Part shown: positions 1,611 through 63,786 of the stretch, one piece after another
How positions within the stretch are numbered: position 1 is the stretch's first letter
Layout of the letters: each line of letters opens with the position of its first letter
Assembly (NCBI GenBank): GCA_032358255.1
Contig: JAULBX010025298.1
Location: 1 to 63,786 of the forward strand
From: Heterotrichella gracilis
Taxonomy: Eukaryota > Sar > Xanthophyceae > Tribonematales > Xanthonemataceae
Reading direction: 5' to 3'
Length of the DNA: 63,786 bases
Translations under genes and position numbers: made by a program
The notes under the pieces: model-generated
Seen by the model: only the letters and a program-made list of their open reading frames with translations
The model's database searches: none
What the model was told of the DNA's origin: nothing

Positions 1611-4148
1611 TCACCGAGGCGAAGCTTCGGCCCCTGGCAGTGCCCTAGCCCCTGCGCTATCCGATGCAGCGTTGCCGTCTCCACTGCCCTCCACCACGAC
1701 CTCCAGCTCCCGCTTGAGGCAGGTCAGCTGCTGGTAGTGCGGGCGGCACACAGGCGCGTAGGTGTCTGCGCCCCCCACCAGCTCCTGCTGCTGTGAGGCA
1801 GCGATGCGCAGGGAGAAGAGGGCGGGGCGCGCGCAGTAGGCGCAGTCTGCAGTCAGCTTGGTGACGGCGTCTGCGTAGGGCACCACATCCAGCACCTGCA
1901 AGGGTTTTGGGGAGGATTTTAATAAGGGTTCTAGAGTGTTAGCGAGGGTACCGGCATGGTTTTGTGAGGAGTTTATTGAATCTGCAGGACGGTATGCTGT
2001 CAACAGGTTGCTTGGTGACTGCATGCGATTGGCAGCTGGGCACTTGTGTATGGACGATGACTAGCAACTGCACAGGGTTTGCCAAGGTTTGGTAAGTGGC
2101 GTGGAGAGGACAGGCAGCATAGCTGCATCTCCCTGCTTTGTATTTTACATATATATCCGACGCCTCCAAATTTTTGCCTGGTTTTGTGTTTGCACCATTG
2201 TCCCCCACCTGCCCAAACCGCCTGCGCATGAAGTCCCCATCCAGCCCCGCCAGCAGCACGGTCTTGTGGTGCAGGTCGGCTGCGGTGGTGCAGAAGTCAA
2301 GCAGGTCGGGGAAGAACTGGGCCTCGTCAATGGCAAGCACCTGCAGGGGAAGGGCAGCTCTGTTATTGATAATCGATGCAACAATTGTGTGATTTTCCTG
2401 TCATTCATTAGGGCGGGTGGCAAACAGGTTAGGAAAGAACTGAGCCTCGTCAATGGCCAGCAACTGCATGGGAAAGAGGTCCGGCGCCATATGGAACTGG
2501 AAACCCTAGTCCAACCCCAGCCCCTGCAATAACCCTGGCCCAAGGCCTGCAAAAATCCCTAGTTTCAACCTGCAAATACCCTGACCCAACCCTTGCACAA
2601 ACCCCTGTCTGCTTACCTGGTAGCTGTGGTAGTCCTCGTCTGACAGCAGCTGGCGGAATGCGGCCAAGGTGGGGGCGGCGTAGCACGGCTGCAGGGAAGG
2701 GAACACAACACAGGGGGTGAGCGGCACAGGACGAAGGATAGCATCATAGTGGCTGCACACTGGGTGGCTGCAGGATCTGGCATCATGGCATGGCGTCACT
2801 GTGCATGGCAGAACTACACCTACAAGTACAAATCATTATTACCACACGCATACCAGCCACAAAAGCCAGATCAGCCATCAACCTCGCACAAGGATGCACC
2901 ACTCACTCAGTCCTGTCCTGGCATTGACTAGTACAAATGATCGGGCAAAAAGCGACAAAACATGATGGCTCCACGGTGCTGGCAACCACCACTTGTCAAC
3001 CGTAACCCGTGCACTGACGTTGAATAACAAATGGGATGGGATGCCCCAAAAATTGCCATTCCAAAACAACTGCCCTACATACCAGTTGGGCATGGTTCCA
3101 ACTCCCAAGGCAAAGTTGGGACCATGCCCTTCACTGGTCATGGTGAAGGGCATGGTCCCAACCATGCCCTTCATGCACCTGGTGCGGCATGGTAACCCAC
3201 CCATGCACCCCATCCGTAGCCGTATACATGTTGGTTCATGCTGCATCTTAATTCATGCTGCACTCACCCGGCGCACTCCATTGTGTGTCACCACAAACGA
3301 GTCCGCATAGCGCGTGTCCTTCTCAGACTTGATCACAGCGACTCTCCTCCCCTCTACCTGCATCATCACACACCCCTGTCAGACTCGCACCCAACAGTAT
3401 TGCCTGCGTCCCTGTATGATTCACAAGCCAGAAGCAAGAATTGCAGGGCATAGTCTTGCCCTGCAATGCCATCAATAACGTTGGCATCCTGAACTATTTA
3501 TGCATGCCTGCACATGTCCTAGGGTTTGCTGTAGGGTTTGCCGGTCAGGATTTTGCGATGACCCCACCTCCTCTTCTGCCACCCTGCGCAGCAGCGCGCT
3601 TGTCTTTCCGGCAAACATTGGCCCGATGAACAGCTCAATCCTGCCGTGACGCTGCTGCAACAGGAGCTCCCCGTCAGGGGCAGTGGTGGGGGCATCGGCG
3701 CTCAAGCCCTCTTCCTGCGCCGCTGCAGAGGTGGGGAAGGGTTCAGGGTTTGGGAAAGAGGTTATGGAGTTGAGGGTATGCACTGATTAGGGTCAACAAT
3801 TTATGTATTAGTAAAGGGCTTTTAAGGTCAGCAGTGTCTAGGGTTTCGTGTCAGGGTCAGAGATGTGCTCTCCCAAAGGCCTTGGGTCATGCACTGTTTA
3901 GAGTTTGGGTTGAGGGTCTCTACCTAATTCAGATGTGGGTCAAGCAGTTACAGTGCGCACTGTCTTAAGGGTTCAGAGTTCTCACCTGACCCAACGGTGT
4001 GCACTGCTCTGTGGCGTGGCCGCAGGGAGGGTAGGCTGTGCTGGATGGGGGCGCTGTGGGAGTGGCGGAGGTGGGCTGTGCAGGTGGCCAGGCGCCATGG
4101 GTGGCATGCCAGTCGCGTGAGGCGGGTGGTGAAGGTACGGGGCAGCAT
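1611..4148 (-). CDS. Thymidine kinase, TK1 type, probably organelle-targeted
   Basis: Phosphorylates thymidine to dTMP in the pyrimidine salvage pathway. Six exons on the minus strand join in frame: 3986-4148, 3568-3722, 3268-3357, 2617-2688, 2209-2340, 1611-1895, giving 298 aa. Exon 2 has the P-loop (GPMFAGKTSALLRR), exon 3 the strand VAVIKSEKDTRYADSFVV, exon 5 the DEAQFF motif with the catalytic Glu. Exon 6 has the lasso and zinc region: CAYC, then ELVGGADTYAPVC. This matches plant TK1 rather than the herpes-type fold. The first ~55 residues, starting MLPRTFTTRLTRL, are rich in Arg, Ser, Thr and His and lack acids, like a mitochondrial or plastid presequence. The start is the first in-frame ATG of that exon; the exon 1 donor and exon 2 acceptor match in phase. 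It lies head-to-head with PUS10. Intron 4 holds a decoy copy of the exon 5 beginning, and intron 3 a 20-bp-arm hairpin. Confidence 0.93.
2414..2472 (-). repeat. Decayed copy of thymidine kinase exon 5 start
   Basis: Intron 4 contains a near copy of the acceptor and first ~45 bases of exon 5 (true exon 2209-2340). Read on the minus strand it encodes LLAIDEAQFFPNLF, against VLAIDEAQFFPDLL in the real exon. It keeps an AG acceptor but diverges after about 15 codons and has no matching downstream portion, so it is a partial duplication, not a functional alternative exon. Confidence 0.85.
3115..3162. repeat. Perfect 20-bp inverted repeat (hairpin) in TK intron 3
   Basis: Arms 3115-3134 and 3143-3162 are exact reverse complements, beginning GTTGGGACCATG, with an 8-base loop. 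Partial extra copies of the arm (CATGGTTCCAAC, CCAACCATGCCC) lie at about 3091-3102 and 3158-3170. It could be a decayed foldback element or a hairpin in the intron RNA; no transposon ends were recognised. Confidence 0.85.
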
Positions 4149-5303
4149 GGTGGTGGTGATAGTGGTGGTGACGGCGGGTGGTGTGTGGCCTGCCCCCGGC
4201 AGGCTCGACTAGCGTAGGATTTGGTGGTGCTGGTGCTGGCTGGTGGTGGTGGAGGGGCTGGCGGTAGCGGTGGTGGTTGGTGGAGGCGCTGGCGCCTGTC
4301 TGCAGGTTGGACTAGTACTTCAACAGTTCTGGTGTTTTGTTGGCCTGTGTCACCTGTCCTTGGCCTGCTTGCTTACGTGACCTTGGTGGGGAGGGTCCCT
4401 TATGCCGCTGCCATGCTGGGTCACCTTTCCTTAACTCAAGGGTAACCTATCCCTCTGTCCTTTCCCTCCTGTGTCCAGACACTTGCTGGCGGCTGGATAT
4501 AGGTTGTGCTAGTGTTTCAAGGGGACGCACTCCAGCGCTGCCTTGGGTTGGGGTATGACGGCAGTGGGATTCTCTGAAAACCCTGACTTGGAAGGAATGG
4601 TTTTGGGTGAGCGTTGGTCCTCAGCGGCCAAGCAGATGAGATGGGGTAAAAGAAAGCTTGTACAGGCTGCTGGCAAGTTAAACTTCAAAGCAGCAGCCAA
4701 TTACGCCTGTGAGGATGTGTCTGGCTGTGGTTTTTTGGGGGGCGCTGTATGCATGCATACGATAATCACATCCCTACTGCAACCAACAAGTGCTGACGGC
4801 AAGGTGCTGACTTTGAGAAGCGAGAACCAGGACGTTACAACCGCCGTCGTTATTTATATGGCCTGGGTTGCGGGTGTATCGCAAGCGTTTTGCACAGTGC
4901 TTGGTTCCAGCGCCGCGCCGGTCCCCCCGGACTGCCCCCCCCGGCCGTCGGGAGTCCCGACCTCAGCGCTGCAGCCAGGACTTTTAGGTCGGGTATTACC
5001 GTAGAGGCAGCATTTGACATCAGTCTGTTTTCCTGCGAGAGCGCGCTAGTACTTACTCTATTGCCGTGGACGTTCAGACCAGTGTTGTGCGTGTATGTGT
5101 AGTGAACCGATGGCATGCGCTTTATGCATGCATATGACCTTGCATACACCCGAAACTCGCCCAGCTTTGGCTAGCCGCTACCCCCCAACCTGTTAATCAA
5201 TATTTAATCCTGCCCGTTTCTAAACTCGCACTTCCGTTAGCTGCCCCAGGCCCACCACGCAGCTTGTCTGAAAACTTTACTATCAGAGGCCCCATCGCCA
5301 GCC
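4149..5303. promoter_or_regulatory. Head-to-head spacer between thymidine kinase and PUS10
   Basis: The two genes diverge from this 1.15-kb interval, so it must contain both 5' untranslated regions and promoters. The TK side is G-rich with GGTGGT runs (about 4149-4290). A 153-codon open frame (4543-5004, +) has no recognisable domain and no splice partner, and is taken as chance. No clear TATA box was identified. Confidence 0.55.
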
Positions 5304-8300: not shown

Positions 8301-9829
8301 CATGCCGTCCCAGCAGGATTTTGACCGCATGCGAGAGGAGATTGCCGTGGTAAGGGTTGGGGTTTAGGGTTTAAAATGGCTTCGGGTTTTGGGTGGATTT
8401 AGGTAAAGGTTACTTAGTAAACTAGTTGGTTACGTGCATCCCAGCAATACAGCCAGGTTAGCAGTCAGTCATGCACATTCGGCACCATGCAGGTTTTAAG
8501 GTATTGGATTTAAATTTTAAAATGAAATTGGGCTTGCAGGCACAAGGTACGCAGTCTTGGTTATGGGTTTGTGTTTACGCTAAAGCCCCAATTGTTGCAA
8601 CTGAACACCCCACACCCTACATTGCAGGCCAACTCTGGGGTCCAGGTGGCTAGCCTGCAGGCCGCCTCCCGGACAGACCTGCAGGCGCTGAAGGAGGGGG
8701 AGTCGTCGAAAGAGAAGAGCTACGTGGCGCTGTGCCGACTCGACCGCCCGCTGACACCTGGCGACGTGGCACAGCTGGATGCGATCAAGGATCTGATGCT
8801 GTACCAGCAGACCCCGGTCAGGGTGTCGCACAGGTAGGCCCTAAACCCTAACATCTGAACCCCAAAACCTAAGTTGTATGGCGATGCGGGACCTGGTGCT
8901 GAATTAGCAGACCCTGGTCAGGGTGTCGCACAGGTATCACACAACCCTCGATCTTTAGAGAACCCTAATCCCGGGGCACAGGTTTGAGGTGGAGGGGGGC
9001 ACGGTGTTGGGGAACGAGGGCATGGGAGCGGTTAGGTGTGTGAAGGGGATAGTGTGTGTTCTCGTCAAGAGGGAAGCGCTGTACCTGGTGATTGGTGCTG
9101 TGTCGCCATGTTGGTTGTATTATGATAGTAAGCCTTAATTGCACTCACAGTCCCAAATATACCCCTGCAGGCGAGCTGACCTGATACGCGAGAGGGCCAT
9201 CCGCACCCTGCGCTGCCAGCCTCTGCCCGAGGACCCATGCGCCTTCCACCTGCACCTGCGCACACAGGCAGGCACATACATCAAGGTGAGCCCCTTTTCC
9301 TAGGGATGGCCTCCATTTAGGTTTCTTGCCAGTTCCCTCTAATATTATTGGCTTATACAGGTTCTATGCTTGAACACTGGCCATCCGCCCTGCATGCACT
9401 CCTGCCTTTTAATTCGCTTCAAAGTGCCAGTGTCCTGTAAGCCTCTGCAAGCAAGGCTCCTCTGCATGGTAGGATGAACACTTCATAACGCCGCCGCCGA
9501 CATTGCCTGAGGCTTAATTGCGCGCACAGCCTTCCCCATATGAGTGCAAAATCAACCTCTAGGTACTTGGGTATGCCATACTGGGTACTACTGTGATTTT
9601 GTAAGCTAAATGGTACCCTTTTCCTCTTCCTTTCCAGGAGTTTGTGCACAGCGACGAGGGGCGCACCAAGCCCTCTCTGGGCGATTTGCTGGGATGCAAG
9701 GCTGATATTGAGTCCCTGGATGTGCTGGAGGTGCACGTGGACCTGTTCCTGCCACCAGGGGCCAAGGCGGGGGATGGGGGCGGGGTGGCGTGGGAGGGTG
9801 CCAGTGGGGATGCAGGGGATGGGCCATGA
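5304..9829 (+). CDS. PUS10: tRNA pseudouridine synthase Pus10
   Basis: Pus10 family enzymes make pseudouridine 54/55 in the tRNA T-loop. Ten exons join in frame: 5304-5396, 5634-6285, 6642-6802, 6940-7177, 7460-7620, 7844-7976, 8225-8349, 8628-8833, 9171-9285, 9638-9829, giving 691 aa. The catalytic motif spans the exon 6/7 junction: AGREDYDVRMLG, in which the Asp before VRML is the expected catalytic residue. C-terminal family blocks are clear: RPVYVGARYLKLQRGISQSP, SHRRADLIRERAIRTLR, then AGTYIKEFVHSDEGRTKPSL. The N-terminal zinc domain has CPRC (exon 2 start) and CPIC (about residue 200). The CxxC pairs are about 165-170 residues apart because of a Pro/Ala/Gly/Asp-rich insert; the human protein is 529 aa with a much shorter spacing. 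The start is the first ATG before the CPRC exon. Converges on RME-8. Confidence 0.94.
8881..8940 (+). repeat. Decayed copy of PUS10 exon 8 3' end and donor
   Basis: Intron 8 repeats the last ~55 bases of exon 8 (about 8779-8836), including the string GGTGTCGCACAGGTA that spans the splice donor. The copy has an in-frame stop (GAATTAGCAG replaces TGTACCAGCAG). Between exon and copy lies CCCTAAACCCTAA. Use of the second donor would read straight into TAG after the true exon end. Confidence 0.88.
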
Positions 9830-9912
9830 CAGCGTGACGGCATGACGGCATGACGGCATGACGGCCCATCGGATGGGGATGGGGTGGCGTGGGAGGGTGC
9901 CGGTGGGGATCC
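9770..9912 (+). repeat. Duplicated PUS10 tail sequence plus ATGACGGC tandem repeat
   Basis: The coding end GGGTGGCGTGGGAGGGTGCC (about 9781-9800) is repeated after the stop at about 9884-9903. Between the copies is a tandem (A/G)TGACGGC run of four units (about 9832-9863). The second copy lies in the presumed 3' untranslated region. Confidence 0.8.
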
Positions 9913-10589
9913 CTTGCCAAGGGAGGGGGAAGGCCTGGCGGCCTGAGGACGCGGCGATGCGCATTGGTGTACTGTTTTGCTAGGACAGATTACAAACAAT
10001 GGTATGTTCAACAGTTATCATTGTGCGAGGTGATCAGACATGACATGCCACATTGTGCTGCAAGGCCAATGGCATGTGGCATCTGTTTAATCCAAAGCAC
10101 AGTCAAAGGATTCTGCGCTGTTGTACAGATATTGTGCACTATGGCACTGCTGTCGCACTACACGCAAACAGTAATCTTTAAATGTATGCACTGACGAGAG
10201 CTAACTTCCATTCTACACCAGCGCTCTCCACTGGAGGTAATCTACCCACTTCCGCCGCTTTGCGCAGTACAGCTCAGCCTGGCGAAACCACCCTTCACCC
10301 AACATGGTACAATATGTGCATGCATGGGACAGGAAATGACGTGATTTTGCTATCCCCTCCTTGTGTTTTGGAGCCAAATCCCGCAAACAATCCCCACACA
10401 AACAGTCCTAAAAAAGTGAACAGATTTTCATTCATCACATAATTCTAGATGAATTCTAGACACAGGTGATCACTCCCCCCGCCACCACCACCCCTGTCAC
10501 CCCCAGCGGCTGCTTGCACGCCATCAAACCACAAACCACAAAAAAAGCCCCCAAAACAACAACAAAAACAGATCCATTTTCCCCAGTAA
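9830..10589. other. Convergent intergenic region, PUS10 / RME-8
   Basis: Holds the 3' ends of two convergent genes. After the tandem repeat the DNA is lower in G+C; no further coding exon is supported. Poly(A) signals in this group (TGTAA in chlorophytes) are too short to assign. Confidence 0.5.
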
Positions 10590-13500
10590 TCACTCCCCAC
10601 GCATGATCCCCCCTTGCCCCCCCAGCGGCTCATTGTAGGCAGTAGCTGGCAGAGCAAATCGCGCCACCTCCGACCCCTTGAGCAGCCCCACCACCCCTGT
10701 GGCTGCGCTGCCCCCTGCCGGCAGGAACAGGTCGTGGCGCTGGTCGCGGTATGCCGGCCACACCTCGGAGCTGTCAAGCAGCTGGCGCACCTGCGGGAGA
10801 TTAGGGTTTATGATTAGGGTTCAGTGTTTTAGACACAGACCTGGGAGATGTAAAGTAGAAGCACACCTGGACCTGGCTTGCAACAAAGACGTTACGGGCA
10901 CAATCAGTCAGGTTAAGAAGCACACCTGCTCGTGAGTAATCCGCTCCCCTGTATCCGTGTGGATCACATGCAGCTGCTGCCAACCCCCCCCTACTCCCCA
11001 CCAGCACCCGCCACATGCATGGGGTGCCACCACCATCCCCACCCACCACCCACCTGTGCCCCATGCGCCCCCTCTGCCGCCATGAGGTGCAGCACCTCCA
11101 CTGCCAGCACGCGCTCAACAGCCTCGTCGCGGTCCTGGAGCCAAGGGAAAGGGTGGAGGGTGAGGTAGCGCGCAGCGGACACATGAAGCCACGTGGCACA
11201 CACACAGCAAACAGCGTGTGACACGCACAGAGCTTGGCCCACAAGCACCACTAGAAGAGCCACACAAGGCGCCAAAAGGGCGGATTTATAACAAAAACAT
11301 GGTGATAGGAGACCCTAAACCCTAAACCCTAAACCAGAGGTTTTCCCATGGCCATCCCCAAATGATTTCCTCCCATCCCTTGCGCAACCCTGTGTAACGC
11401 ACCCGCTCCCTTGCCTCCGCCCCCTCCTCCCCCCGCCGCCAGTCCAGTCGGTGCAGCAGCAGCCGCACCAGACCCCACTCCAGCCCGCCCCCCACCAGCA
11501 CGTCCCGCGCGCGGTTCCCCACCCCTATACCCCGCTTGTACGTCTCCAGCGCCAGCACGCTGCCCGCCACCCCCCACCCGCTGGCGCTCAGGATGACCGG
11601 GGCCGCGGGCGGTAGGGTTCTTGCTAGGGTTTCTGCGGCGGAGGGTGATGCGGCTAGCTGGTGGAGCAGGCGGAGGATGCTGCCGCCGACTTCGTCGGGC
11701 TCGGAGACCACTCGGGGGATGGGGGTGTCTGCGGCTGTGGTGAGGGGAGGGGAGGTTTAGGGTTTAGGGTCTAGGATAGGGGTATCTGAGGTTACGGTGA
11801 GGGGAGGGAGAGGATTAGGGTTTGGGGGTTTCAGATTGGGGTGTCAAAGGCTGTGGTGAGGGGAGGGGGAGGAAGAGGGCAAGGAGTAAGGAGTGGAACC
11901 CTGAACCCTAACCCCGAATCTCAGAACATTCCCCACCCTGCAGTCCAAAATCAGCACAAAGACATATTTTACGAGTGGGTTATTGAAACCCCCACTCCCC
12001 TGGAAACCTGACACCATACATGTGCCACCCAACCCCTGCCCCACCCACCCACCTATGTCCATGGCCGGCACCCTCCCCGCCAGCAGCTTCACCAGCCGAT
12101 CCACATACCCCAGCCCCACAGCATGCTCCGCCAGCAGGGGGTGCACCATCAGCAACCCCACAGCAGCAGCAGAAAGAAGCACCGGCAGCTCTGACTGCTT
12201 CTCCGCATACCCCACCTCCTCCACGTAGCGTCCCAGCAGGCCCTCCAGGAAGGCCTGGGGATGGCGCAGCGGGAACTGGGGATTCGATAAAAAGAGGCGC
12301 ACGTACACCCCGCCCACAAACAGCTCGTCTCGCAGGGCTGCGTGGGTGATGGAGAAGCCCTCGGGGGGGTGCCACTCCCGGCGCCCCGAGGCCTGCGAGG
12401 CAAGGGAACAGAAAATTGAATGCTTTTGTGGTCGTGATGATGGGAAGTAGTCGTTCTACTGTAGTGTTGACATGCACCAAACCATGGGAATGTCACATGC
12501 ATGTGAGATTAGGGCCATTGATACAACATGCGCGTGCGACACGGCATGGCGGCGCCAATGTGGTTGAAATCTCACAATCGTGTGGATGGTGTCCCATAGG
12601 AGCCTGCACAGTGCATTCCCAACCACAACCAACCCCCCTCCCCACCCCCACATGCGCCACACGCCCCCTCCACCCCCCATCTGCTCCCGAGCACCCCCCA
12701 CCTGTGCCGCACGCGCCGCCTCTGCCAGACCCGCCAGCTCCTCGGCTGTAGTGCGCGCCATCTGCACGCTCCACATGCGCTCGGGCGTCTCGGAGGCCTG
12801 GCCCAGTGCGCGCACAGCCGCGTCGCCGGGGCCCTCCTGCACAGGGAATTAAATGGGGGTGGGGTGGTGCGTGGTGGTTTTGTGATCAGGTATATGGCCA
12901 GATGGGCTGGTGGGGAGTGGGTATAAGTGTGTGTAGATACTTCCCATTATGTTTGACAAGTGTGAAGCTGAAGCGCTCCCACCAGACCATGTAGAAGGCA
13001 GGCTCCAGGTGACTATCAAGGATGACTGGGTGCATCAATACTTTTTGTAGCCACACGGCGACCATCACCTGAAGCATTGCCAGCCCTATGATGCACGCTT
13101 TCCCCCTTGTAGACGCCATACCTGGAGTGTCGCCACCAGGCCCCGAGGCAGCAGGCGCTCCAGCAGCAGCCTCACCCTGGGACCATGCAGCGGCTGGTGC
13201 ATGAAGCGAGACAGCAGCGTGGCGCACACCGCGCGGTCCCCGGCCCCCACGCCCTCGTCCCCACCCTCCGGCGGCGCCAGGGGCAAGAGCTGGGTCAGCA
13301 GGTATATCGCCCCCCCCTGGGCGGCCGCGCTCCACGCCGCGGGTGGGGTTTGGGCGAGGGCTTGTAGCAGGCGGAGTGCCATGGCGAGGGCTGTGCGTGA
13401 GGGTGGTCGGTGTATGATCCAGAAGCACAGCAGCAGGCATCGCTCCTCGGAGAGCGCCTCAATGCAGCCTGGGGGTGGGAAACCAGGGTTGAATACAGGA

Positions 13501-16500
13501 GCAAATTTTGTTTTGAGATTTTTGATTTTTGAAGCTGAGGGGTGAACAGGCACAAAGTGACATGCATGCATATTGAGGGCATACCTTGTACAGCGCTGTG
13601 GACTTTCCTGTTGTAAAAACAGGAAATATTGCTTAAGCACATTATATTTTTCCCAATGTAAATGTATTTTAGTTCTCACATCTCATCTTGCGTTATAAGG
13701 CGCAGAAATGGTTTAGTGCCACTCCCTACCCCTGCCACAATCCCGCCCCAGCGCACCTGCATGCGCCGTCAGCCGCACAAGCACCGCCAGTGCCAGCTCG
13801 GCAATGGCCACGTCATGCGAGGCCGCCGCCACGTCATCCGCATGCTGCGCCTCGGCCGCCACATCGCCCGCATGCTGCGCGGCCGCCGCCGCCACAACGC
13901 CCGCATGCGCCGCCGCCGCTGCCGAGTCACCCGCATCCTGCGCCTCCGCCGCCGCCGCATCCCCGGCTTGCTGCGCCGCCGCCTCCACATCACCCGCATG
14001 CTGCGCCGCCGAATCGCCCGCCGCCCCGGGCGGCTTCCCGCCGCCGTGCATGCGGCGGCAGGCGGGTTCTATGCAGCTCAGCAGGGGCGCCAGCGCGGGG
14101 CGGGTGGCCATCAGCGCAGCCAGCCTTGGATGCACCTCCACCAGCTTCTGCAGCGCGGAAAGCGCAGACTCCAGATGCTGCCGCCGCCGCGCCGCCGCGC
14201 CCTCCTCCTCCCCGTTTTCGTCACCGCCGCCCTCGCCCCCTTGCGGGTGCACCACCTCGTTTATGTACGTCACCAGCCCCTTGCAGAAGGCCGATGCGTC
14301 GCTGGTCAACGAGGCTGGCTGCTGGTTGTACACACGCACAAACACCCCACCGATCACCAGCTCGTGCTGCAGGGATGAGAACTTGAAGCCGGCCACCGGG
14401 GCGGCGGCGGGGGAGGATCGTTCCTCAGCCATGAGCGCAAGGACCTCCTCCCGCATCTTGCTGTTCCAGATGACCTGCAGCAAGAGATGCATTGTCTGAA
14501 AATTTCGTCTGTATCATTATTTCTTTACCATTTGTTTCCTTTACCATAATCCTTTACCAGATAAGTGGGGCAAACTCTGTGGATGCAGCCCAACAGACCA
14601 GTTAACCCAGCATATGGGAGGAGGAGGGATAAACAAATGGCCTAAACTGCTGGTAGTCCATCAAAATGAGGCACCTGTAAGTATCAATTGTGAACACAGA
14701 ATGGCAAGGGAAACGCCCTTCCTTTACCATCCAGCCTGGTTCATGTAAAGGCTGGAGGTTTGTCTGCAGCATTCATTTGCAGCATTAACACCAACTGACC
14801 TGTGGCGTTTGCACGCTGCTGTTGAGATCCCTCAGCAGGGGCCGTGGGTCCAGCTCAGCCAGGCGCGCAGCCAGTGGTGGGGTGAGGAGGGTGCACAGCG
14901 TGGCGAGGGTGGGGGCGGAGGGGGGGGTGTCCAGCGGGGGAGGGAGCATGCCCGCCAGCCGGGCCAGTGCGCGCGCGGCCAGCATGGCGTGGTGGTTGCT
15001 GGCGGCCTGTGGGATTTTAGGGTGTTGGGATGTAGGATTTCAGGGTTTGCTTTAGGGTTTAGGTGGGTGATGGCGGTCTGCAAGGGAAGGGAAAGATGTG
15101 CCTATCTTACCGCGTTGGGGGGCAATATGGGTGTATGGGATACAGTCACATGCCTGGTTGGGGCCATGTGCATGGGAAGGATTGCATGCATATGTGGGCG
15201 CCGCATGCAACAGCGGCCACAGGTGGAGTCATGTGCATAGAATGCAAAAAATTGATAAAAGAATACCAACAATAAGAATGATAATATACATAATAATAAC
15301 AACAATACAGTGCAGGGGTAGGTTTGCACCCATGGGTGGAGAGCCACACACGCACAGGGCTCAGCAGTACGATCCCCTCCTAGGGTTTAGGGTCTGCCCC
15401 TCCCCCACCTGCATGTTGCTGCGCTCCACCCCCAGTCCAAGGAACGCAGGGCCCAGCTTGTCCTCCCCGCTGAAGTCAAACTCCGGTGCCCCCCCTTCCT
15501 CCCCCTCCTCATGCGTAATGTCGTACTTGAACAGCAGAGGCACCACGTGACCCAACACGCCAGCTGTCATGAGCGCCTGTTGCAGCGCCGGGGATGCCGC
15601 CATTTGGGCGATGCATGTGAGCGCGGCGTCCACCGCGGCGGCTGCAAGCTCGAGGGAGCAGGAGCGCACGATGTCCGATATGATGAGTGACCTACAGCGG
15701 GGATAAGGGTTTAGGGTTTGCAGAATGGGGGTTGGGATGAGGGTGTGGGATTTCAGGGTGTGGGGTGTGGAGATCGCGACATCCGTGCGATGCAGGTGAG
15801 CGCGGCGTCCACCCCGGCCACCGGGTTGGAAACGTGGGGAGTGGGGATATGAATGTTGCTTTGAGGAATGCGACCATGGTGATGCATGTGAGGGCAGCAT
15901 CTACCGCAACAGCAGCCAGCTCCAGCTTGACTCTCACCTCCACCCATCTCCACCACCATCCCTTACCCCCACCTAACCCCGACCTTACCCCAACACCCTC
16001 CCACAGCGGAAGGAAATCCACCCTTCTACCTGCCACCCACCTAAATGCAAGCTCCGCCCGCGCCGCGGGGAAGCACGTCATCCCCGCAAACGTGCGCAGT
16101 GCCTGCGTGGCAATCACGGCGGCAGGCGCGGCGGGCGACGCATCCCGCGGCATGACGGCGGCGGTGCGGGTGAGGGCGCGGCCCACGATGTCCACGCCGC
16201 CTGCGCGCGTCAGCTCCTCCCCGTTCAGTTTCGATGACACGCACGTCAGCCAGCACAGCTCGATGGCCACCTGCGAATTGGTGAGGGAAGAGGGTGAGAG
16301 GGGTGGGTTCAGTTGGGCTGTAAGTTCGAGGTTTCAGCATACTTAGCAGGTTTAGGGTTTTCAATAGGGTTTAGGGTTCTGCACGAGATAGTGACCACCC
16401 AACTACTCTGCTTAACTAACACCCCTATACTTGAGACGAGGCATAGATTTTCTCCTCTGATATCATTGTTTTAATCTCAACGCACCATCACGCATGAAAC

Positions 16501-29804: not shown

Positions 29805-31112
29805 CGTGGTCAAAGACCCTGAGGGCAGATCCCGTCACAGTTAAGGCATCTCTCGGTTCCCACTTCGCACTGCCTCGGTTCTTGGCTTCTTGCCGTAGAA
29901 GAAGTGTTTGAAACGTCTTTAAAGGTCCTTGGACGCAGCTCTGAAGGCCTGGCGCGTCAGCATCCTGCTGGGCGATTTGCTAGATTGGGCCCCGGCAAAG
30001 GGCTACACAAAGCGACGCACGTCAACCCAACCCAGAGCTGTATGCCCCTTTTTAGCAACAAACCAAGAATATGCCGACCATCAAGGTACTTCTACTAGTG
30101 GTTCGGAGCTGCTAGCCTTGAAAATAACCCTTGCTCGTTTCTGGGCTCGAGCCCAAGCTCGTATATGCATGCATTTGCAGAAATGGAAATTGGGCTAGGA
30201 TTTCGTTTTAATCCTATTTAGTTTTCCCTCCTTTTTCGGCAGTGCCATCTTCGAGTGGTGGTCTGGGCCTAGAAGATCTGCACAATCATTGCGGTTAAAG
30301 AGTTCAGAACGCACCATGGATGCCATCGTGAAGTGTGAGGGAGGAAACGGGGCACCATGGCAGCCACAGCGGCTGTAAAATGCGGCAAATTTACTTTAAA
30401 TGGCCCTCTTTCAAGGGAGTGGATGTTCGAACCCAATGGGGCAAGATGGGGGAGCCAGCTTGGCTGAAAGCATCGACACAAGACAAGTGGTATCACCTCG
30501 TATATTACACCACCCTTATCCATTGCAAACCATACTGTAGCGCTGCCTGATTAGCAGATGGACGCAATAATCTATTGCAACCAAGCCTGGCTGGTCCAGT
30601 CAAAACCCACATGGTCTTCAAACACCACCTCTTCAAACCTTCGATACTGCATACTGCAGCGCATGCGAGAGGGGAGCCGCGCCTCGGCACCGCAGCGCCT
30701 GCTGCGTCTAGCATCAAATTGCCACACCCCACCTCTACTGCAACCACCATGGCTCCACTCGGTGCTGCAGCGCCTGCCTCGCCACTCCTGCTCCTCATAC
30801 AACCCCACTACGTGTAGTTCAGAAATGCCAGCAAACCCCACACAGCACTGCTCCAACCATGAAGTGTGAAGACAAGGAAAGCCTGCCGTAGAGGAACAGA
30901 GGCGCGGGGCCAGGGTGGATCTGTCCCATGTCCAACTCCAACGCACCCTCAATTCCAGAGCCTGCCTGGGCCCCCAGCGCTCCACCTCTCTGTTGCTGTA
31001 CGCGCACGCGCATCATCCCGAATGGCCCCACCGTAGCAAGGACGGGTTGTTGAGGAGGAGCGAAGGTGCGGCACCAGCTCGGCAAGATCGCGCCAAAAAA
31101 ATGCCCTCCCCC
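29805..31112. other. Interval between RME-8 start and MAK16 end
   Basis: Contains the RME-8 promoter and 5' untranslated region and the MAK16 3' flank, both genes being on the minus strand. No supported exon or RNA gene was found. Its right half carries two decayed copies of the last MAK16 exon. Confidence 0.55.
30665..30820 (-). repeat. Decayed copies of MAK16 last exon downstream of the gene
   Basis: The end of MAK16 reads on the plus strand CAGTGCCGCAGCGCCTGCC followed by the CTCCTCCTCGTA stretch. Similar strings occur at about 30676-30695 (CGGCACCGCAGCGCCTGCTG) and 30760-30815 (GGTGCTGCAGCGCCTGCC then CTCCTCATA). They preserve order but not the frame. Confidence 0.75.
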
Positions 31113-53180: not shown

Positions 53181-55759
53181 ATGGGCAGTGACAGCGAGGG
53201 GGGTGGCCACGCACACATATGGCACGGGCTGGCAGCGGGGGTGGTGTCCGCCGTGGCTTCCAGAATTGTCACCTGTACGTGGTTTCGCATATGATGTATT
53301 TCCTTTGCGGCTTTCCACTCTGTGTCCACACTTCACCCTAGCTCCATGCCCTTCATATGCATGCATACATGCATGCGTGTGTGAGCAACATGCAGCATGC
53401 ACTCGACAGACTATAGTTGCTGCTGAGGACTATGCAGTGCACTTGAAAAATGATCCAGCAGGATCACGCGTGCGCATTGCATCATGCCGCCATGCCTCCT
53501 CCCGTTGCCGCCATCTGCATGCCAGCGCCACCTGCCACAAGTGGGTGTATATGTGCAGACCCTCCGGACACAATCAAGGCTCAGCTGCAGATGCAAGGCG
53601 CAGCGCCTGGCAGCAAGGCGTATAGCAGCACCTTCCATGCATTCACCAAGGTGTGGTGGTTCCGCTGGCATTGGCACCTTTTCCATTGCCTTCACGGTTT
53701 GGTTCGTGGTGGTGTCCAGTGCCCGCACAGGTAACCTGCGTGTCTGTCAGTCTGCCATCACCTGAAACACGACGCCAATGATGCAGCAGCACTCGCGACC
53801 ATCATTGGCAGCGCCGCCATCCACCCAGCAGGTCCCCAAACCCTTAAAACCCTAAAACCCTAACTCCCGCAGGTGGCGACCACCGAGGGCATCGCGGGGT
53901 TCTACCGCGGGCTAGGGTTTGTGCTGCTGGGCGTGGTGCCCGCCAACATGGCCTACTTTGGCGGCTACGAGGCGGCGCGCGCGGCGCTGCCACGTGGCGG
54001 CAGCCCGTTGGCCGCTGACATGGCAACTGGCCTCATTGCGCAGCTGGTGGCGGGGGTGGTGTACACGCCGGTGGATGTGATCAAGGAGAGGCTGCAGGTG
54101 GGTGCTGTTTAGGGTTTAGGGTTTAGGGTTTGTGGATGGGAGAGAAATAGGCTGGTAGATGGGGTCAAGGAGAGGTTGCAGGTGGGTTCGGGGGGTGGGA
54201 GGGGGAATACTTGCGGCTGGTGGATGGCGTCAGGGGTGGGAGGGGGAATAATTGCGGCTGGTGGATGGCGTCAAAGAGGGGCTGCACGTGGGTTGCAATA
54301 CATGCGTGCGGTGCTGCCAGGTGGCGGAAATCTATTGCCTGCTGACATGGCCTCACGCCTCATCCCCCAGCTGGTGGTAAGGGTGGTGTATTGATACCCC
54401 CTTTTATTCGTGCCCGTGCCACACATAGTGCCAGACAGGAACCCTGCATTAGGGCATCCATTCGTGAATGCCCCTCCCCTGCCAGGTCCAATCCATCATG
54501 TCGCCCCAGCTGCGCTTCACCAGCGCCCGCCACGCCATCGCATCCACCCTCACTCGCCATGGCCTGCGGGGGCTGCTCAAGGGCTACTGGGTGACCAATT
54601 CGGTGTGGATACCCTGGAATGTGGTGTACATCGGCTCATATGAGGCCAGCAAGCGACACATGGCGGCGTGGCTGGGGGTGGGGGGGGAGGGGGCGCTTCC
54701 AGCGTGGGGGTTTGCTGCCTGCTCGGCGGGGTGCGCGGGTCTGGCGGCGCTGTGCACCCATCCAGCGGATGTGGTCAAGACGCGGCTGCAGGTGGGGGCA
54801 GGAACCTCCTGAACAAATTTTGTTACTTTGAAAAGTTTGCATGTAACGAACTCGGTTGATAACCTTATTTTGAGTTCGTGGGGTGGGGACGTACTGCGTT
54901 ATGTTTTTGCATCGGAGGTTGCAATTTCACTGTTTCTTTGTGCCATAACTTTTGAACGATTTAAATATTCGTATTATAATAAACACTGAGGCAATTACGA
55001 TAATATACACCCTTGCTTGGGGTTGTGCAGGTGCTGTCTGCTGACCCACGGGGAGGGGAGTTGACTGCACTGGGTGTGGCAAAGCAGCTGTACCAACAAG
55101 AAGGTAGGCACTCTTTGCACAAACTTGAATGCTATGCCATTTCATCCTCAGCACTGCTGTAGCATTTGACCACCACCATGGCAAGTACTCACATCGCACA
55201 CAGTTGTACATCATGGTCCATTGCCGAGGGGCCATTATCTTGTTGTAGCATAAACCAGTTCTCATGTCGGTCCTTACAAACCATAGGCTGCATGCCAGCA
55301 GGAGCAGCATTCTTCATCTTGCACAGACGTGCATAACATGCACCCCCACTGTGCTTCGTTACGCATCCCACTGACTTGCATGTGCATCCCCAGCGTTCTT
55401 CCATAGCCGTTTGCAGGAAAATGCATACCCTTTATACTTCCATGCGCACCCTGCTTACAGGGAATTGCGTCCTCTACTGTACTTGCATGTGCACCCCCAC
55501 TGTGCTTCCATGTGCATCTCCGCTGTGCATTCTTTAGCATCCCCACTGTACTTGCATGTGCATCCCTGCTGGGCTCCCATGTGCATCCCCACTGTATTCC
55601 ATGCCCATCCCCACTTCGCCTCTTTGCGCCACAGGGCTGGCGGGATTCAGCCGAGGCATGGCCGCACGGGTGCTGACCATTGCCCCAGGTGCCGCGCTGT
55701 CGTGGGCGCTGTATGAAACCATCAAGCGCCGGCTGCAGCAGCTTGAGGGTGCAGAATAA
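53181..55759 (+). CDS. Mitochondrial carrier family (SLC25) protein
   Basis: Inner-membrane solute carrier with three repeats of two helices. Six exons join in frame: 53181-53274, 53559-53650, 53873-54097, 54486-54791, 55031-55103, 55635-55759, giving 304 aa, the usual length. The three signature motifs are visible: YPPDTIKAQLQ, TPVDVIKERLQ and HPADVVKTRLQ, each at the end of an odd-numbered helix. The first motif spans the exon 1/2 junction and has Pro in place of the usual Leu/Phe before Asp. Other landmarks are EGIAGFYRGLGFVLLGVVPA, GLLKGYWVTNSVWIPWNVVY and EGLAGFSRGMAARVLTIAPG. The substrate is not assignable by eye. The N terminus is short, with no presequence, as normal for the family. 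Intron 3 carries decayed copies of exon 3 and intron 5 a minisatellite. Confidence 0.94.
54098..54395 (+). repeat. Decayed copies of carrier exon 3 in intron 3, with (TTTAGGG)3
   Basis: Directly after the exon 3 donor comes TTTAGGGTTTAGGGTTTAGG. Then the exon end (GATGTGATCAAGGAGAGGCTGCAGGTGGGT in the gene, about 54073-54102) is echoed as GGTCAAGGAGAGGTTGCAG (about 54163-54181) and GCGTCAAAGAGGGGCTGCA (about 54267-54286). A longer block 54307-54390 matches exon 3 positions ~53976-54070 in order (GCTGCCA, GTGGCGG, CTGACATGGC, GCCTCAT, CAGCTGGTGG, GGTGGTGTA). Confidence 0.88.
55375..55615 (+). repeat. Degenerate ~22-bp minisatellite in carrier intron 5
   Basis: About ten imperfect units built on TTCCATGTGCATCCCCACTG (variants with CTTGCATGTG, GCACCC, TGTA). 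The array stops about 20 bp before the last exon acceptor. Probable length polymorphism. Confidence 0.85.
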
Positions 55760-56618
55760 TAGGAGCAAGGGGCATCGATGACTGTTTCAGACACATATCT
55801 GAATAAATTACACACAACAGAGCATTTTGGCGAGAGCACAGCTTGACTGCCACAAATAAATACAGAGCAGTGTATTTCTACCGGTTCTGCTACTTGTGAT
55901 GGATGATTTTCCACCTGTTGCTTGTTTGCACTGCATGGCTCTGTAGCGATTTGGCACAGCTATTTTGACGTCACATTCTTTGTGAGGGTACGCTGATTTA
56001 AAATACAGGGTGGGTTTATGAAGTAACCTGCATGCACTGCCACTGCCTGCGCATTGCGTGACAGTGATGTCCTTTCTTTGGCTATGTCTGGCGCCGGCGA
56101 CTGGAATCCAAAATTCCTTTATTTGCTAGGAATTGGTTTTCTTTTCTCTTCCCTGCATGGCATGGCGTTGAGGTAGTGCACCTCATGCTACTCCAGGGCC
56201 TGAAAAGTGGGCTTGCTGTGCCAGCACCTTTATTTTCTGTGAGCTTCGAACACGGCGTTGTCATGTGAACGGGTTTCTTGGCATCACTGGGCACTTTGGG
56301 TGGGCTCGTAGCTGTTGCGCGGCTCTAAAGGGTTAGCCCGGGGCTGGCCGTCCGGCGGCGGCGCGCGCGGAGCTTTGCCACTAAAACGTTTCCAGTAACT
56401 TGTGTGTGGTTTGGGGGTTTAGGCATTGCCTTGCACTTGCCCTTCAAGTTCACCTTCCACAAAACCCATCAAGCATTCGGTAATATGTAACTGACACTGA
56501 GGGCGTTCAGCGAGCAGGGAAAGGTGCACAGGAACCCCAGCTTTTTGTAATGCATGCAAACTGCATGGCCCTTTGACGATAGAGGTTGCCATAGCAACAA
56601 GCGTAGTCCTACGCTGCA
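55760..56618. promoter_or_regulatory. Interval between carrier and ArgRS
   Basis: Contains the carrier 3' end and the ArgRS promoter and 5' untranslated region. A short G+C-rich patch (CCGTCCGGCGGCGGCGCGCG, about 56348-56367) stands out. No TATA box near the ArgRS start was identified. Confidence 0.5.
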
Positions 56619-59600: not shown

Positions 59601-62533
59601 ACGTGGCGCTTTGTAGTCATCCCTTATGGCACCTAGTCATGAGTGATGTGCATGTGCCATGGATCAAGGTGCATGTGTTGCATGGCCTCTGCCACATGGG
59701 GCCAAGTGGAGGATGCAGAAGGCCGACGGCCCCAACCCTCTGAACCCTGAACCCTAAACCCTGAATCCTAATCCCTACTCCATGCAGGGCCTGGAGGCCC
59801 CCCTTATGTTCCAGAAGAGCGACGGCGCCTTCAACTACGCCACCACCGACCTTGCGGCCATCAAGCACCGGCTGCAGGTGGAGAAGGCTGAGTGGGTCAT
59901 CTACGTCACAGATGCAGGTGGGGTTAGGACTCAGGGTTTTGGCATATTGGGTCATCTACGTCACCGACGCAAGTAGGGTTAGGGTTTAGGGCTTAGGGTT
60001 TTGGCATAATGGGTCATCTACGTCACGGATGCAAGTAGGGTTAGGGTTTAGGGCTTAGGGTTTTGGCATAATGGTCATCTACGCCAGAGATGCAGGCAGG
60101 AGACGACATGCCTTGGGGTGGTAGCAGGGGTATGTTCACCTGCTGTTGTCACCATGCACCCATGTTACACCCATTCTGATGGCACCCCCTCAGGCCATTC
60201 GAGCAGGGGCGCAAACTTAAATCGGCCTTGCAGTTGGTCCCTCCACGTGCAATTACTGGTGGTCATCACTCGATGGCCTTTTGTCAAGATCCACCTTGTT
60301 GACACCCATTTGCTGTGCCCCCTTCTCCCCCAGGCCAGGCGCAGCACTTCAACATGGTGTTCAACGTGGCCCGCCGCGCCGGCACCATCCCGCCGCCAAA
60401 CGCCCAGGGTATCCCGCGCATTGACCACGTGGGCTTTGGGCTGGTGCTGGGTGAGGATGGGAAGAAGATCAAGACCCGGTCAGGGGAGGTGAGGCAGCGC
60501 GTGGGGGTGGGTGGGGTGTAAGCTTGTAAAGAAACACTGTAAAAATGTCTGATTTTCTGAAGTACATGTTTTAACAATACTTTTACAGGAAAACCAGTTT
60601 AAAAAACATACTTCAGTAATAGTCAATGTAATGTGTGAATTGAATAATGTCTTGTATAATGCATACATACTGCAAGATCACATGGATTCACATCACATTC
60701 TGGGAAACAAGGTTTTGAGTTTTATATTCCTCCCCCAGGTGATCCGCCTGGCCGACCTGCTTGACGAGGCCAAGGTGCGCACGGTGGGCACAATTAAGGA
60801 GCGCCGCGGGGATGACATCAGCCCCGAGGAGCTTGAGGAGGCCTCCTCGGCCATGGGCTACGGGGCGGTCAAGTACGCCGACCTCAAGAACTACCGCCTC
60901 ACCAACTACAGGTTCTCGTACGACGAGATGCTGTCGCTGCAGGTGCGGGGCGGGAGGCGATCCTAGGGTTTGGGGTTTAGGAAGTGGCCCCAAGAGGGCA
61001 AAGGGTTAGGGGTTGGGGAAAAGGAGGCGCCAGCATGGGGTGGGAGTTGATGGGTGCATGTGGGTGGTGGCGTGGGCATGCGCTGGATTTGGGTGGTCAA
61101 GGCTGTAGACTTGAGGAATTCCACCTGACCATCTAGTGGTGCTCATATGGCGAGGGGCTGTCGCTGCAGGTGGGGGGCTAGGTAGTGGTGGTGAGAGGAG
61201 TGGGGGGGTGGGGGTGTCATGTGGTGGTGGTGGTAGGGGGGGCAGGCGCATGTGTGTGGCCAATGGGAGCCAATGATTTCAAGGCAGGCTGCAAGCAGGC
61301 TACAAGTCCTGCAAACCACTACGTGCCATCGGCCTGCTCCCCACTTCACGCATGCATGGCACACCTACCATCACCCCCTGGCCATGCACCTCCTGAACGG
61401 CATTCAATTGACTGTTTGATTAGGATTGCATCCACATCCAATCCTATTCATGCAATCAACCCTAATTGCATGATTAAGATTGCCTCATTATCCAGTACCA
61501 GTGAGGGTTGCCACATTGCATGTGCCCACCGCACCCCGCACCCATCACCCCGCAGGGCAACACCGCGGTGTACCTCCTGTACGCGCACGCGCGCATCGCA
61601 TCTATTGTGCGCAAGGCGGGGCGGGACGTGGCGTCGGTGGCTGCAGCCTCGCCCATCAAGCTGGAGCATGAGAAGGAGATTGCCCTGGCGCTGCACATCG
61701 CAAGGTGGGTCAGCTGCTCCCTGACTGCACCTTGGCTGCTGGACGGTTTGTCGCAAAACCCTCGACCAGGGTTTAGGGTTAAAAACGTAGGGTTTTCCCA
61801 CTGTGGTTTGCCTTCTGCACCATGGTTGTTCCCTAGGTTGGTGTTGTGTTGCTCCCCTTGCTTGACGGCTGCTCGGTAATTACCCTTGCCCTTGCCAGGA
61901 CCTTGATCATCCACGTTCAAATTACAGCATGACCCTGCTCAATCATAAAATTGCAATTTGTGGTTCCCCAGGTTTCCCGAAGCGCTTGAGGAGATGCTTG
62001 AGAACTTGGCCCCCAACCGGCTGACCGAGTACCTGTACGAGCTGTCCGGGATCTTCAACTCCTTCTACGTGGAGTGCCATGTAAGTGGTGATGGAGCAGG
62101 GGGGGCATACAGGCTAGCATGGCCGTGATGGCACGTGATTGGAGGCTTGGTCCTGGAACTGCAGACTGGTGCCAAGTTGTGCTGCATCGGTGTGGTTGAA
62201 GCATGCGCATGTGCTGTTGGTGACACAAACACCCCCCACCCCCCCGGCCACGTGCGCACGGCAGAAGAGGATGTGCATAAACCCTAACCTTTGGCAGGCC
62301 CTAGACCCTAACCTGTGCCAGTCCCGTTCCAACGCGCCACCGCCTTGAACCATGTCAAGGTGAATGAGCACCCGCTTGACCCATCCCATCGCTCCCCAAC
62401 GACCCCTCCCCTCCTCCCGCAGGTGATTGGCACCCCCGAGGAGGACAGCCGGCTGCAGCTGTGCGAGGCCACCGCCGTCATCATGCGCCAGTGCTTCCAG
62501 CTGCTGGGCATCACGCCGCTGTTCAGGATATGA
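56619..62533 (+). CDS. Arginyl-tRNA synthetase, class I, with organelle-like leader
   Basis: Charges tRNA-Arg. Fourteen exons join in frame: 56619-56652, 56735-56793, 56900-56987, 57254-57376, 57614-57685, 58066-58166, 58496-58831, 59143-59541, 59788-59917, 60334-60488, 60739-60942, 61556-61704, 61972-62080, 62423-62533, giving 689 aa. The HIGH motif is HVGH in [20 protein letters not shown]. Other blocks are [45 protein letters not shown] and [10 protein letters not shown], which takes the place of KMSKS as usual in ArgRS. The anticodon-binding end has [16 protein letters not shown] and closes [16 protein letters not shown]. The first ~110 residues precede the ArgRS N-domain and hold Ser/Pro-rich sequence and [12 protein letters not shown], a VRA-type cleavage-like site, suggesting plastid and/or mitochondrial import. 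A second start at 56909 ([13 protein letters not shown]) could give a shorter form. An alternative exon 2 acceptor at 56728 gives an Arg-rich leader that does not fit exon 3 phase. Confidence 0.95.
56987..57107 (+). repeat. Inverted repeat spanning the ArgRS exon 3 donor
   Basis: Left arm 56987-57008 (GGTAGGAGTGTTCCAGCAGAGG) includes the donor GT. Right arm 57087-57107 is its reverse complement except for one base. A shorter second partner (CACTCCTACC) lies at 57076-57085. In RNA the donor would sit inside a ~21-bp stem with a ~78-base loop. Confidence 0.85.
59893..60097 (+). repeat. Tandem array of ArgRS exon 9 end plus TTTAGGG
   Basis: TGGGTCATCTACGTCAC starts at 59893 (true exon end), 59948 and 60010, with a shorter fourth copy near 60072. 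Each unit runs through GATGCA(A/G) and then AGGGTTAGGGTTTAGGGCTT to GTTTTGGCATA. Period is about 55-62 bp. Donors in copies 2 and 3 read GCAAGTAGG, so GT is kept but the exon G is changed. Confidence 0.95.
61139..61180 (+). repeat. Decayed copy of ArgRS exon 11 3' end and donor
   Basis: The exon end TCGTACGACGAGATGCTGTC then GCTGCAGGTGCGGGG is echoed as TCATATGGCGAGGGGCTGTC then GCTGCAGGTGGGGGG about 200 bp downstream. GT donor intact. Confidence 0.85.
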
Positions 62534-63786
62534 GGGGAGCGGTGGTGGCACATGCTGGTGTTCACAGCTTGTGAGGTGGATGAAGATGCTGTCATCCAGT
62601 GCTGCCAGCTGCTGAGCGTCAGTGATGCCAGTGTGCAGAAGTTGGGAGGGGTATGGTGGCGGGTGGGTTTTGGGGAATGCGGGTGAGCGCGAGGGACTAT
62701 CGTGTGGAAGCGCATGTGAGCACATGCGCAGCACTGCAGTTGCTCATTTTAGAAGGGCAAGTGGCGTACACTTTGTAATCAACGTCACGATTACAAAGCA
62801 CCGTATGTGAATGGGCAGCAACATGTCTAGGAGCAATGACACCTTTCTTTCATTCTGAACAAGAACAGTGTCATGCAATATGGAGTTACCTGCGTTGCCA
62901 AGTGACCAGTCCAATCAATCATTGTCTTGCAAAGGGGACTGCCCTTTCACTCCTGCGCTTGTGAAGGCAGCCAGTCACGCGGCTATCCTCAATGATGCGG
63001 CGTACTGCTGAGGACACACACAATTACTCTGCTCGTTGCGCAGTCTGTGCCTCCCAGGGCCACGGCTGTACAAATAGACTCGATGGCTATTATGCCGACA
63101 GTCACTGGGGTCTGCACCTCCAGGGGCTATATGTGTCACGTCAACTGGGTGTTACAGTAGCTGTTACAGTAGCTGATGGCGCCAAGCTCAATCTACTAGA
63201 ACAGTCAATAACGTCCAGCTTACACTGCCTTGGCAACTGCCTAACACTGGCCATCACCTGGGTCTGTGCTCATACGTCTCCGAACGTATGCAAACGACAC
63301 AAATCACTGGCAGTGTATCAGCGGCGCAAATCAGAAGGTTCCACAGAGGAAACAAAAGGGGAAAAGAAACAAAATAACCAAATAATGCCAGGCGGCCTGA
63401 GGCGGGAACTCATTGCCCTTATAAACCCTAATCAACCTGCAGTTCAACCCTATTTGCCCAAGGCAATACTCCTGAGATGGCATGACCAATCTACCGTGGT
63501 AGCCCATTATTACTCTGAATCAGACCCAAAGACTGCAGGAAGAGTTGCTCTCAAAAGCAAGCTGACTTATTCCCACAACCAACCTCCCCCATGAACAATC
63601 CAATTCTCCTGTCCACAATACTCCTCGGTAATAAGACCTTAACCATAGACGCTCTTCAAATATACAGTTGCAGTAGCAACAAAGGGCAGGGTTTCGATTA
63701 GTTTTTTTTTTTTGGCGGCGGTCTGGCGGTGATACCATGTTTCTGGCGGTGGAGTCTGGCGGTGAGCTGCCAAATCTGGCGGTGTC
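62534..63786. other. Right flank, ArgRS 3' end and orphan open frame
   Basis: Just after the ArgRS stop, 62591-62640 echoes the final exon (GTCATC, CAGTGCT, CCAGCTGCTG, GATGCC in order). A 200-codon open frame at 62992-63594 (+) has an unremarkable composition, no domain and no start context, and is unproven. No other gene is supported. Confidence 0.5.
63711..63786 (+). repeat. Short TCTGGCGGTG repeats at window edge
   Basis: TCTGGCGGTG occurs about four times (near 63720, 63741, 63755 and 63774) after a poly-T run. The pattern continues to the window end, so it may be the start of a larger repeat array or gene-family element. Confidence 0.75.

Follow-up and report, generated by a model that had tools for sequence, protein, structure and literature searches.

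The DNA considered here, called the window below, is a stretch of 63,786 nucleotides from Heterotrichella gracilis (Xanthophyceae; assembly GCA_032358255.1, contig JAULBX010025298.1); it is contig C280 in our numbering of a 68.5-Mb, 903-contig assembly. Pfam matches confirm six genes on it: ArgRS, PUS10, TK, a mitochondrial carrier, MAK16 and RME-8, the last by its RME-8_N and DnaJ domains. When the window is compared with itself, partial copies of exon ends turn up in the adjoining introns and flanks of these genes (Table 1). Such copies, which we call exon echoes, are real, they extend past the window, and the DNA around them is associated with telomere-type repeats. The first-pass annotation had reported a dozen or more of them in the six genes, and the cases it named are there—in TK, PUS10, RME-8 (several), MAK16, the carrier and ArgRS (59886–60100 and 60863–61178). 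Two are weaker than the rest. The copy in the 3' flank of ArgRS (about 62,560–62,640) has a score of 24, equalled by 4 of 400 random window segments, an upper bound since such segments may overlap the source; in the other, MAK16's second (31109/30755), only 43–63 bases match. The side rule, the telomere-repeat association and the unevenness between genes, described below, were absent from that annotation. An Rfam search of the window gave no match.

The window was supplemented with 25 stretches of ten kilobases each from elsewhere in the genome, at fixed offsets on contigs chosen for convenience rather than at random. Nineteen of these contigs came from the match list of an unrelated 95-base repeat, which they carry. 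Of the six outside that list, one looked bacterial and was dropped, and echoes occur in three of the remaining five (L031, L032 and L033). Excluded before gene models were counted were L028 (GC content 0.44), L029 (GC content 0.35, bacterial-looking) and the loci shorter than 10 kb (L001–L008), leaving 24 loci, the window included, with 293,786 bases and 467 predicted introns. Three genes—PUS10, ArgRS and the mitochondrial carrier—were curated by hand and used to train a small hidden-Markov gene finder, the source of all other exons; it fused neighboring genes and labelled a few echoes as exons. Predicted proteins of the other loci had Pfam matches in two of four cases in one batch and in six of six in a second (one L022 protein was in both). 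PsbP and starch-binding CBM53 domains are among them and, with the TTTAGGG telomere, would suggest a host of the green lineage.

Some features met along the way stand apart from the echoes. The TK intron contains, at 2832–2926, a dispersed element of about 95 bases with at least 39 further matches on other contigs (74–96% identity). L029, on the 894-kb contig C1, has low GC content and intronless, bacterial-looking genes; its reading frames we take to be bacterial from the look of the proteins, whose sorting-domain-like C-termini suggest Bacteroidota, probably a culture associate or contaminant. L028 (1–10000) has five inverted local repeats, against none in 28 other tabulated sequences.

Local copies in the sampled loci are overwhelmingly direct. 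Within the window there are 29 direct matches and one inverted match at separations below 2 kb, and none of either kind at 2–4 kb; 20 other ten-kilobase loci gave 87 direct and two inverted matches no more than 600 bases apart (38 bits). After a complexity filter the 24 loci hold 69 direct pairs and no inverted ones, and the same loci, locally shuffled, hold no pairs at all. Probes made of exon sequence only, searched against their own introns at a score of at least 20, found 46 upstream-exon tails and 30 downstream-exon heads, where introns of other genes gave 1.0 on average. Echoes thus defined occupy 68 of the 467 introns, about one in seven, in 19 of 44 predicted genes; a search with longer probes marked 67 of the 467, and left 10 of the 24 loci with no echo. 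On orientation, then, and on the reality of the echoes, the first-pass annotation was right.

The duplicated stretch is mostly 40–110 aligned bases, of which the exon part has a median of 45. Side, offset and broken frames were counted on the 43 clean pairs of 68; of the others, 19 are partly coding in both copies, and so ambiguous, and six are coding in neither. The median offset is 163 bases and 41 of the 43 lie within 300, as had been noted, and decay varies as described too, identity running from 0.75 to 0.95 between the 5% and 95% quantiles. It is plausible, given this continuous range, that duplication is ongoing. Introns with an echo are longer than those without (medians of 392 and 269 bases), though an echo is also easier to detect in a longer intron. 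Echo counts differ between genes, with a variance of 0.0371 against 0.0147 expected; since the simulated maximum is 0.0398 (2000 draws), this overdispersion is near, not beyond, the limit of the simulation. Per gene, the echo fraction correlates with GC content at third codon positions (rho 0.61, 41 genes) and with the telomere-motif density of echo-free introns (rho 0.48).

Echoes obey a side rule. Among the clean pairs, the copy is downstream in all 22 cases that include a donor and in all three that include a stop, and upstream in all 10 that include an acceptor; one further clean pair is mixed, and the alignments of the other seven contain no junction. For exons of more than 150 bases, the end facing an intron has an echo there in 22 of 201 and 11 of 206 cases, and the far end in none of 201 and none of 206 (score 20). 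This is the placement that duplication followed by protein-preserving selection predicts, and it contradicts the pasting of exon pieces isotropically into arbitrary introns. The splice junction itself is within the copied unit in 77 of 91 copies. Echoes had been described as usually the 3' end of an exon with its GT donor; donor-side events are indeed the more numerous, 48 with GT kept in 20 of 23, yet the acceptor side contributes 24 events, with AG kept in 9 of 10.

Selection, by itself, does not account for where the copies fall. When 70-base tiles were searched for a second copy within 600 bases, one was found for 14.7% of the tiles at donors (374) and 9.8% of those at acceptors (379), compared with 3.6% of 197 tiles inside exons and 1.4% of 800 between genes, which bears out the earlier suggestion of a local duplication process favoring splice boundaries. 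The copies lay downstream of donors in 53 cases and upstream in three, and upstream of acceptors in 33 and downstream in six. Inside introns 102 of 1514 tiles (6.7%) had a second copy: in 67 of these the partner is exonic, which makes them echoes, and 35 (2.3%) have non-exonic partners only. Because splice-junction tiles are duplicated more than intron interiors, selection alone is insufficient. Duplications placed evenly and then filtered for protein survival would yield a mean of 34.3 junction-containing pairs (maximum 47 in 300 draws), where 52 of 69 are observed, and we set that model aside.

The echoes look neutral, and they decay. Mismatches between exon and echo number 98, 85 and 178 at codon positions 1, 2 and 3; by our own estimate a freely drifting echo, paired with synonymous drift in the exon, should give a third-position share near 0.47, and the observed share is 0.49. 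A stop or frameshift interrupts 21 of the 43 echoes. Nor is there a sign that these duplications create introns, a connection the first-pass annotation had drawn: the AGGT signature of intron gain, in which, in register, the end of the exon is similar to the end of the intron and the start of the intron to that of the next exon, was found by either test in none of 371 introns (the threshold, which old gains would escape, was 60% identity without gaps over 30 bases).

In 13 of the 24 testable young events (of 76), the spacer between the copies appears again on the far side of the echo, as it does in simple tandem units; in 11 it does not. Plain arrays occur at ArgRS 59893–60094, with a 62-base unit, and at L012:245–581. 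The 175-base spacer of a 94% pair in L022, in contrast, bears no similarity to its flank and has no second match in the genome, and the 41-base spacer of the RME-8 pair (18654–18694) likewise has no significant match beyond the echo or to its flanks. Plain tandem duplication as the sole account thus fails for the 11 events with unshared spacers, though it is retained for the 13. An introner or shared transposon in the spacers was also considered and rejected: 49 spacers of at least 40 bases gave 58 matches in other loci, the first 25 of which are 18–32 bases long and fall on telomere-like stretches. As a whole, L022:7500–10000 has no second copy in the assembly, only short elements, and at about 9416–9464 it contains a 48-base palindrome-like element that matches both strands at dozens of genome sites.

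Arrays of TTTAGGG start a few bases from the ends of several contigs (C70, C140, C526, C609, C717, C770 and C824); TTTAGGG is therefore the chromosome-end repeat, and tracts in the introns match it. All 14 of its rotations are within the top 16 over-represented intron 7-mers, and its density, in heptamers per kb, falls from 9.6 in introns to 2.6 in intergenic DNA and 1.0 in exons. The spacers of exon echoes are far richer still, at 40.0 heptamers per kb. Echo-free introns sampled at matching positions have 7.6 (at most 22.1 in 1000 draws); the motif occurs in 36 of 72 spacers, where this control gives 8.7. The excess persists when introns of the same genes serve as control (37.8 per kb in spacers and 11.5 in the control, which reaches at most 25.3 in 1000 draws), and when a spacer is compared with the far side of its own intron (43.3 against 17.1 per kb, with 18 spacer-only and five flank-only cases). 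The echo DNA is, in short, associated with telomeric sequence. Introns in general have a pattern of their own. In a sample of 286 introns of at least 250 bases, motifs occur on both strands at the donor side (0.143 G-strand and 0.115 C-strand in the first 60 bases) and nearly on the C strand only at the acceptor side (0.024 and 0.136 in the last 60), with 0.052 and 0.028 in the middle. The sequence CCCTAAAC may serve as branch point.

Table 1. Exon echoes and their sources in the window, with strand and basis of assignment
Feature	Position	Strand	Basis
Source copy: 5' head of the TK exon and its acceptor	2298..2351	-	self-comparison, Pfam TK
TK exon-head echo, upstream in the preceding intron, 85%	2421..2474	-	self-comparison
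PUS10 exon 8 tail with donor; exon end 8833	8773..8849	+	self-comparison, Pfam
PUS10 exon 8 tail echo with GT, 78%	8872..8948	+	self-comparison
PUS10 predicted coding end and downstream copy (9772-9872 / 9871-9967, 70%); stop 9826 is a gene-finder call; weaker case	9772..9967	+	
RME-8 exon head with acceptor side (11718-11769); echoes 11775-11827, 11834-11879	11718..11879	-	
RME-8 exon piece (15590-15654), no junction inside; echoes 15769-15818, 15865-15925	15590..15925	-	
RME-8 exon tail with donor (17143-17211); echo 17028-17102	17028..17211	-	
RME-8, weak case: exon tail 18193-18230; 38-base match 17994-18031 (82%)	17994..18230	-	
RME-8 exon tail with donor, source of the 93% pair	18695..18781	-	
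Youngest echo of the window (93%, 87 bases), RME-8 exon tail with donor; 18578-18622 taken as exon by the gene finder	18567..18653	-	
41-base spacer between the 93% RME-8 copies; contains GGTTAGGGT and ACCCTAAA	18654..18694	-	
RME-8 exon tail (26152-26233); echoes 26036-26117, 25938-26013	25938..26233	-	
RME-8, weak case: exon tail 27680-27752; match 27546-27613 (75%)	27546..27752	-	
MAK16 region, weaker case: short match 31109-31151 / 30755-30796 (84%)	30755..31151	-	
MAK16 exon head with acceptor (32705-32803); echo 32912-33010	32705..33010	-	
Carrier exon tail (53977-54103; exon end 54097); echoes 54151-54187, 54224-54293, 54304-54390	53977..54390	+	
Telomeric spacer behind the carrier exon tail	54104..54150	+	
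ArgRS exon 7 tail (end 59917) and 62-base tandem array (exon tail, donor, telomere-like tract)	59886..60100	+	
ArgRS exon 9 tail (60863-60951); echo 61091-61178 (74%); 61137-61169 taken as exon by the gene finder	60863..61178	+	
ArgRS last exon (end 62533) and weak copy in the 3' flank	62423..62680	+	

The window also has, at 51196–51704, a predicted exon with VVQKKVP repeats and an asparagine-rich 99-base repeat.

What we favor as an explanation, and would give about an even chance, is recurrent, gene-associated duplication over short distances, likely by repair of staggered breaks, filtered by selection and with telomeric sequence taking part. A stretch would become duplicated in direct orientation beside itself, either as a clean tandem unit or with the copies set apart by an unshared spacer. 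The likeliest source would be the repair of staggered double-strand breaks, in which fill-in of the two protruding ends would be followed by their joining, filler being added in some cases. Duplications within an exon would break the protein and be lost; those across a donor, an acceptor or a stop would leave one intact path, and the second copy, hidden in the intron or the 3' flank, would drift neutrally. TTTAGGG repeats might be inserted at the breaks as filler, or G-rich tracts might draw the fill-in machinery. What the data show is the direct local copies, their side rule, their near-neutral decay, their excess at boundaries and their association with telomere repeats; we infer the break and its fill-in, any part played by telomerase or CST, and the order of events in time. 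Staggered-break repair appeals to us by analogy, because mammalian break repair makes duplications, because telomeric repeats become inserted at breaks, and because the assembly contains matches to a telomerase domain and, at two loci, to Ku.

Several observations weigh against this account. Copies of intron in intron are rare—six of 69 pairs are non-coding in both copies, and only 35 of the 1514 intron-interior tiles have solely non-exonic partners—where selection alone predicts many. Quicker divergence of two unconstrained copies would, by our own estimate, explain a factor of about 1.6, not one of 4 to 6, and the breaks must therefore be exon- or junction-biased. The side cannot be judged in the 19 of 68 pairs that are partly coding in both copies, and nine tile matches (three donor, six acceptor) are on the unexpected side. 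The 13 to 11 split of the young events between plain tandem units, a number that telomeric similarity may inflate, and unshared spacers means that a single mechanism may not suffice for every event. Telomere motifs are abundant also in the intron portion of the copied units, at 67.5 per kb (the repeats may themselves extend the alignments), and the 50 bases past the echo junction have a telomere coverage of 0.137, compared with 0.056 over the first 50 bases of introns that have no echo in those genes; the tracts may precede duplication, rather than accompany it. Nor does strand speak plainly. Donor spacers are G-only in 22 cases and C-only in nine, which is not clearly beyond the 27:27 of the position control, and acceptor spacers, at 2:12, match their control at 7:44. 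As proof of telomerase the orientation of the tracts was accordingly dropped; in an earlier event set it had looked stronger (21 G-only, six C-only).

The main rival is replication slippage or template switching, in which the polymerase would slip from the start of the intron back into the edge of the exon and copy it again, which would yield tandem arrays or truncated tandem units, telomere tracts stalling forks and so marking the sites. The 13 young events whose spacers recur beyond the echo are what it expects, as are the plain tandem units of ArgRS and L012 and the presence of telomere tracts within the duplicated unit as well as in the spacers. Against these must be set the 11 with unshared spacers, and the 175-base spacer of the 94% pair; slippage does not by itself explain the rarity of intron–intron copies either, and we regard it as unlikely, if a serious contender. 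A second possibility makes the telomeric machinery central: breaks near junctions would expose G-rich 3' ends, and extension by telomerase or fill-in by CST-primase would yield both tracts and duplications. The high telomere density of the spacers fits, and so do the donors, which are GTGGG at 0.40 of 48 echo junctions and at 0.25 of 419 others (raw fractions), and the echo-free introns, which are richer in motifs in genes with echoes (22 genes, median 7.2 per kb) than in genes without (19 genes, 1.4; p 0.0002). But half of the spacers (36 of 72) have no motif, strand orientation is not clearly unlike the position controls, and the only 8-mers among the most frequent beside 109 telomeric runs are telomeric, with no flank that resembles a telomerase RNA. 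We think this explanation improbable as a whole.

There are two further explanations. Echoes could be true alternative exons, or decoy splice sites kept by selection, since the splice dinucleotide survives in 29 of 33 and a few are open enough for the gene finder to have called them exons. They are partial exons, however, with changes common at the first and second codon positions, and an open, constrained frame is not kept, as the 21 broken echoes of 43 and the codon-position pattern show; we find the idea very hard to credit. (At L031:1498–2258 an array of acceptors and exon heads, VASHTIGGLHAVV-like and present six times in the predicted protein, lies in a gene resembling exocyst Sec10, and some of its copies could be spliced in.) Alternatively, the assembly might have merged haplotypes or noisy reads into false local duplications. 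It is a single assembly, and it contains at least one bacterial-looking contig. Most copies, though, are 5–25% divergent and partial, and they obey the splice rule, and the PUS10 stretch 8600–9300 has no second match in the assembly; an artefact is scarcely to be believed.

The interest of the echoes is that gain of intron length and multiplication of splice sites are poorly observed, and that in one genome a small sample contains scores of snapshots of different ages, in which mutation and selection can be told apart by a simple rule. Should the telomere link be true, the chemistry of chromosome-end repair would be tied to the evolution of introns. Whether telomere-linked repair of splice-junction breaks is, genome-wide, a main engine of intron growth, each event duplicating the edge of an exon, sometimes leaving telomeric filler and being tolerated since splicing conceals it, so that the introns of affected genes would be largely decayed echoes and telomeric filler, is a larger matter, and our answer for the present is a doubtful perhaps. 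Schiml (2016) and Vaughn and Bennetzen (2014) are said to treat small tandem duplications from protruding-end break repair. In open-licence literature we found no description of exon-edge echoes in introns among the titles and abstract openings of the papers that our searches listed, which is weak evidence of absence.

Known systems resemble this one in part; what follows draws on portions of the papers cited. When mammalian cells repair breaks that have protruding ends, small tandem duplications arise, the ends being filled in by primase under the guidance of CST (PMC8355091; PMC5730883), and human insertions shorter than 100 bases are mostly of this origin (PMC8355091). Such duplications are like echoes in being direct and local and in overlapping them in size. 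The echoes differ in being very dense, in being concentrated at splice junctions, and in having spacers that are often unshared and telomeric, and their mechanism is the inferred one. The AGGT type of intron gain also involves tandem duplication beside splice sites (PMC3443670), but its signature is missing from the 371 introns tested here, in which the copies lie within existing introns, instead. Short direct repeats at intron borders lie near splice sites as well; those repeats are 4–30 bases long and compared between the two ends of an intron (PMC11782384), whereas echoes are copies of exon edges, with a median of 45 exon bases, in one intron.

Telomeric repeats, for their part, are inserted at mammalian breaks, in the horse by way of a staggered break with duplication of the flank (PMC7215372). 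Among 66 horse loci, three have duplication alone and two more have deletion, addition and duplication (PMC7215372). The Trebouxia genome paper, in the portion used here, places telomeric repeats at contig ends or points of misassembly and nowhere else (PMC12712428). Interstitial telomeric insertions are like the tracts described here in that telomeric repeats occur away from chromosome ends, sometimes with a flanking duplication (PMC7215372). The difference is one of place: in human the share of such insertions that falls in introns is said to fit random expectation (PMC7215372), whereas here introns, and especially their ends, are strongly enriched.

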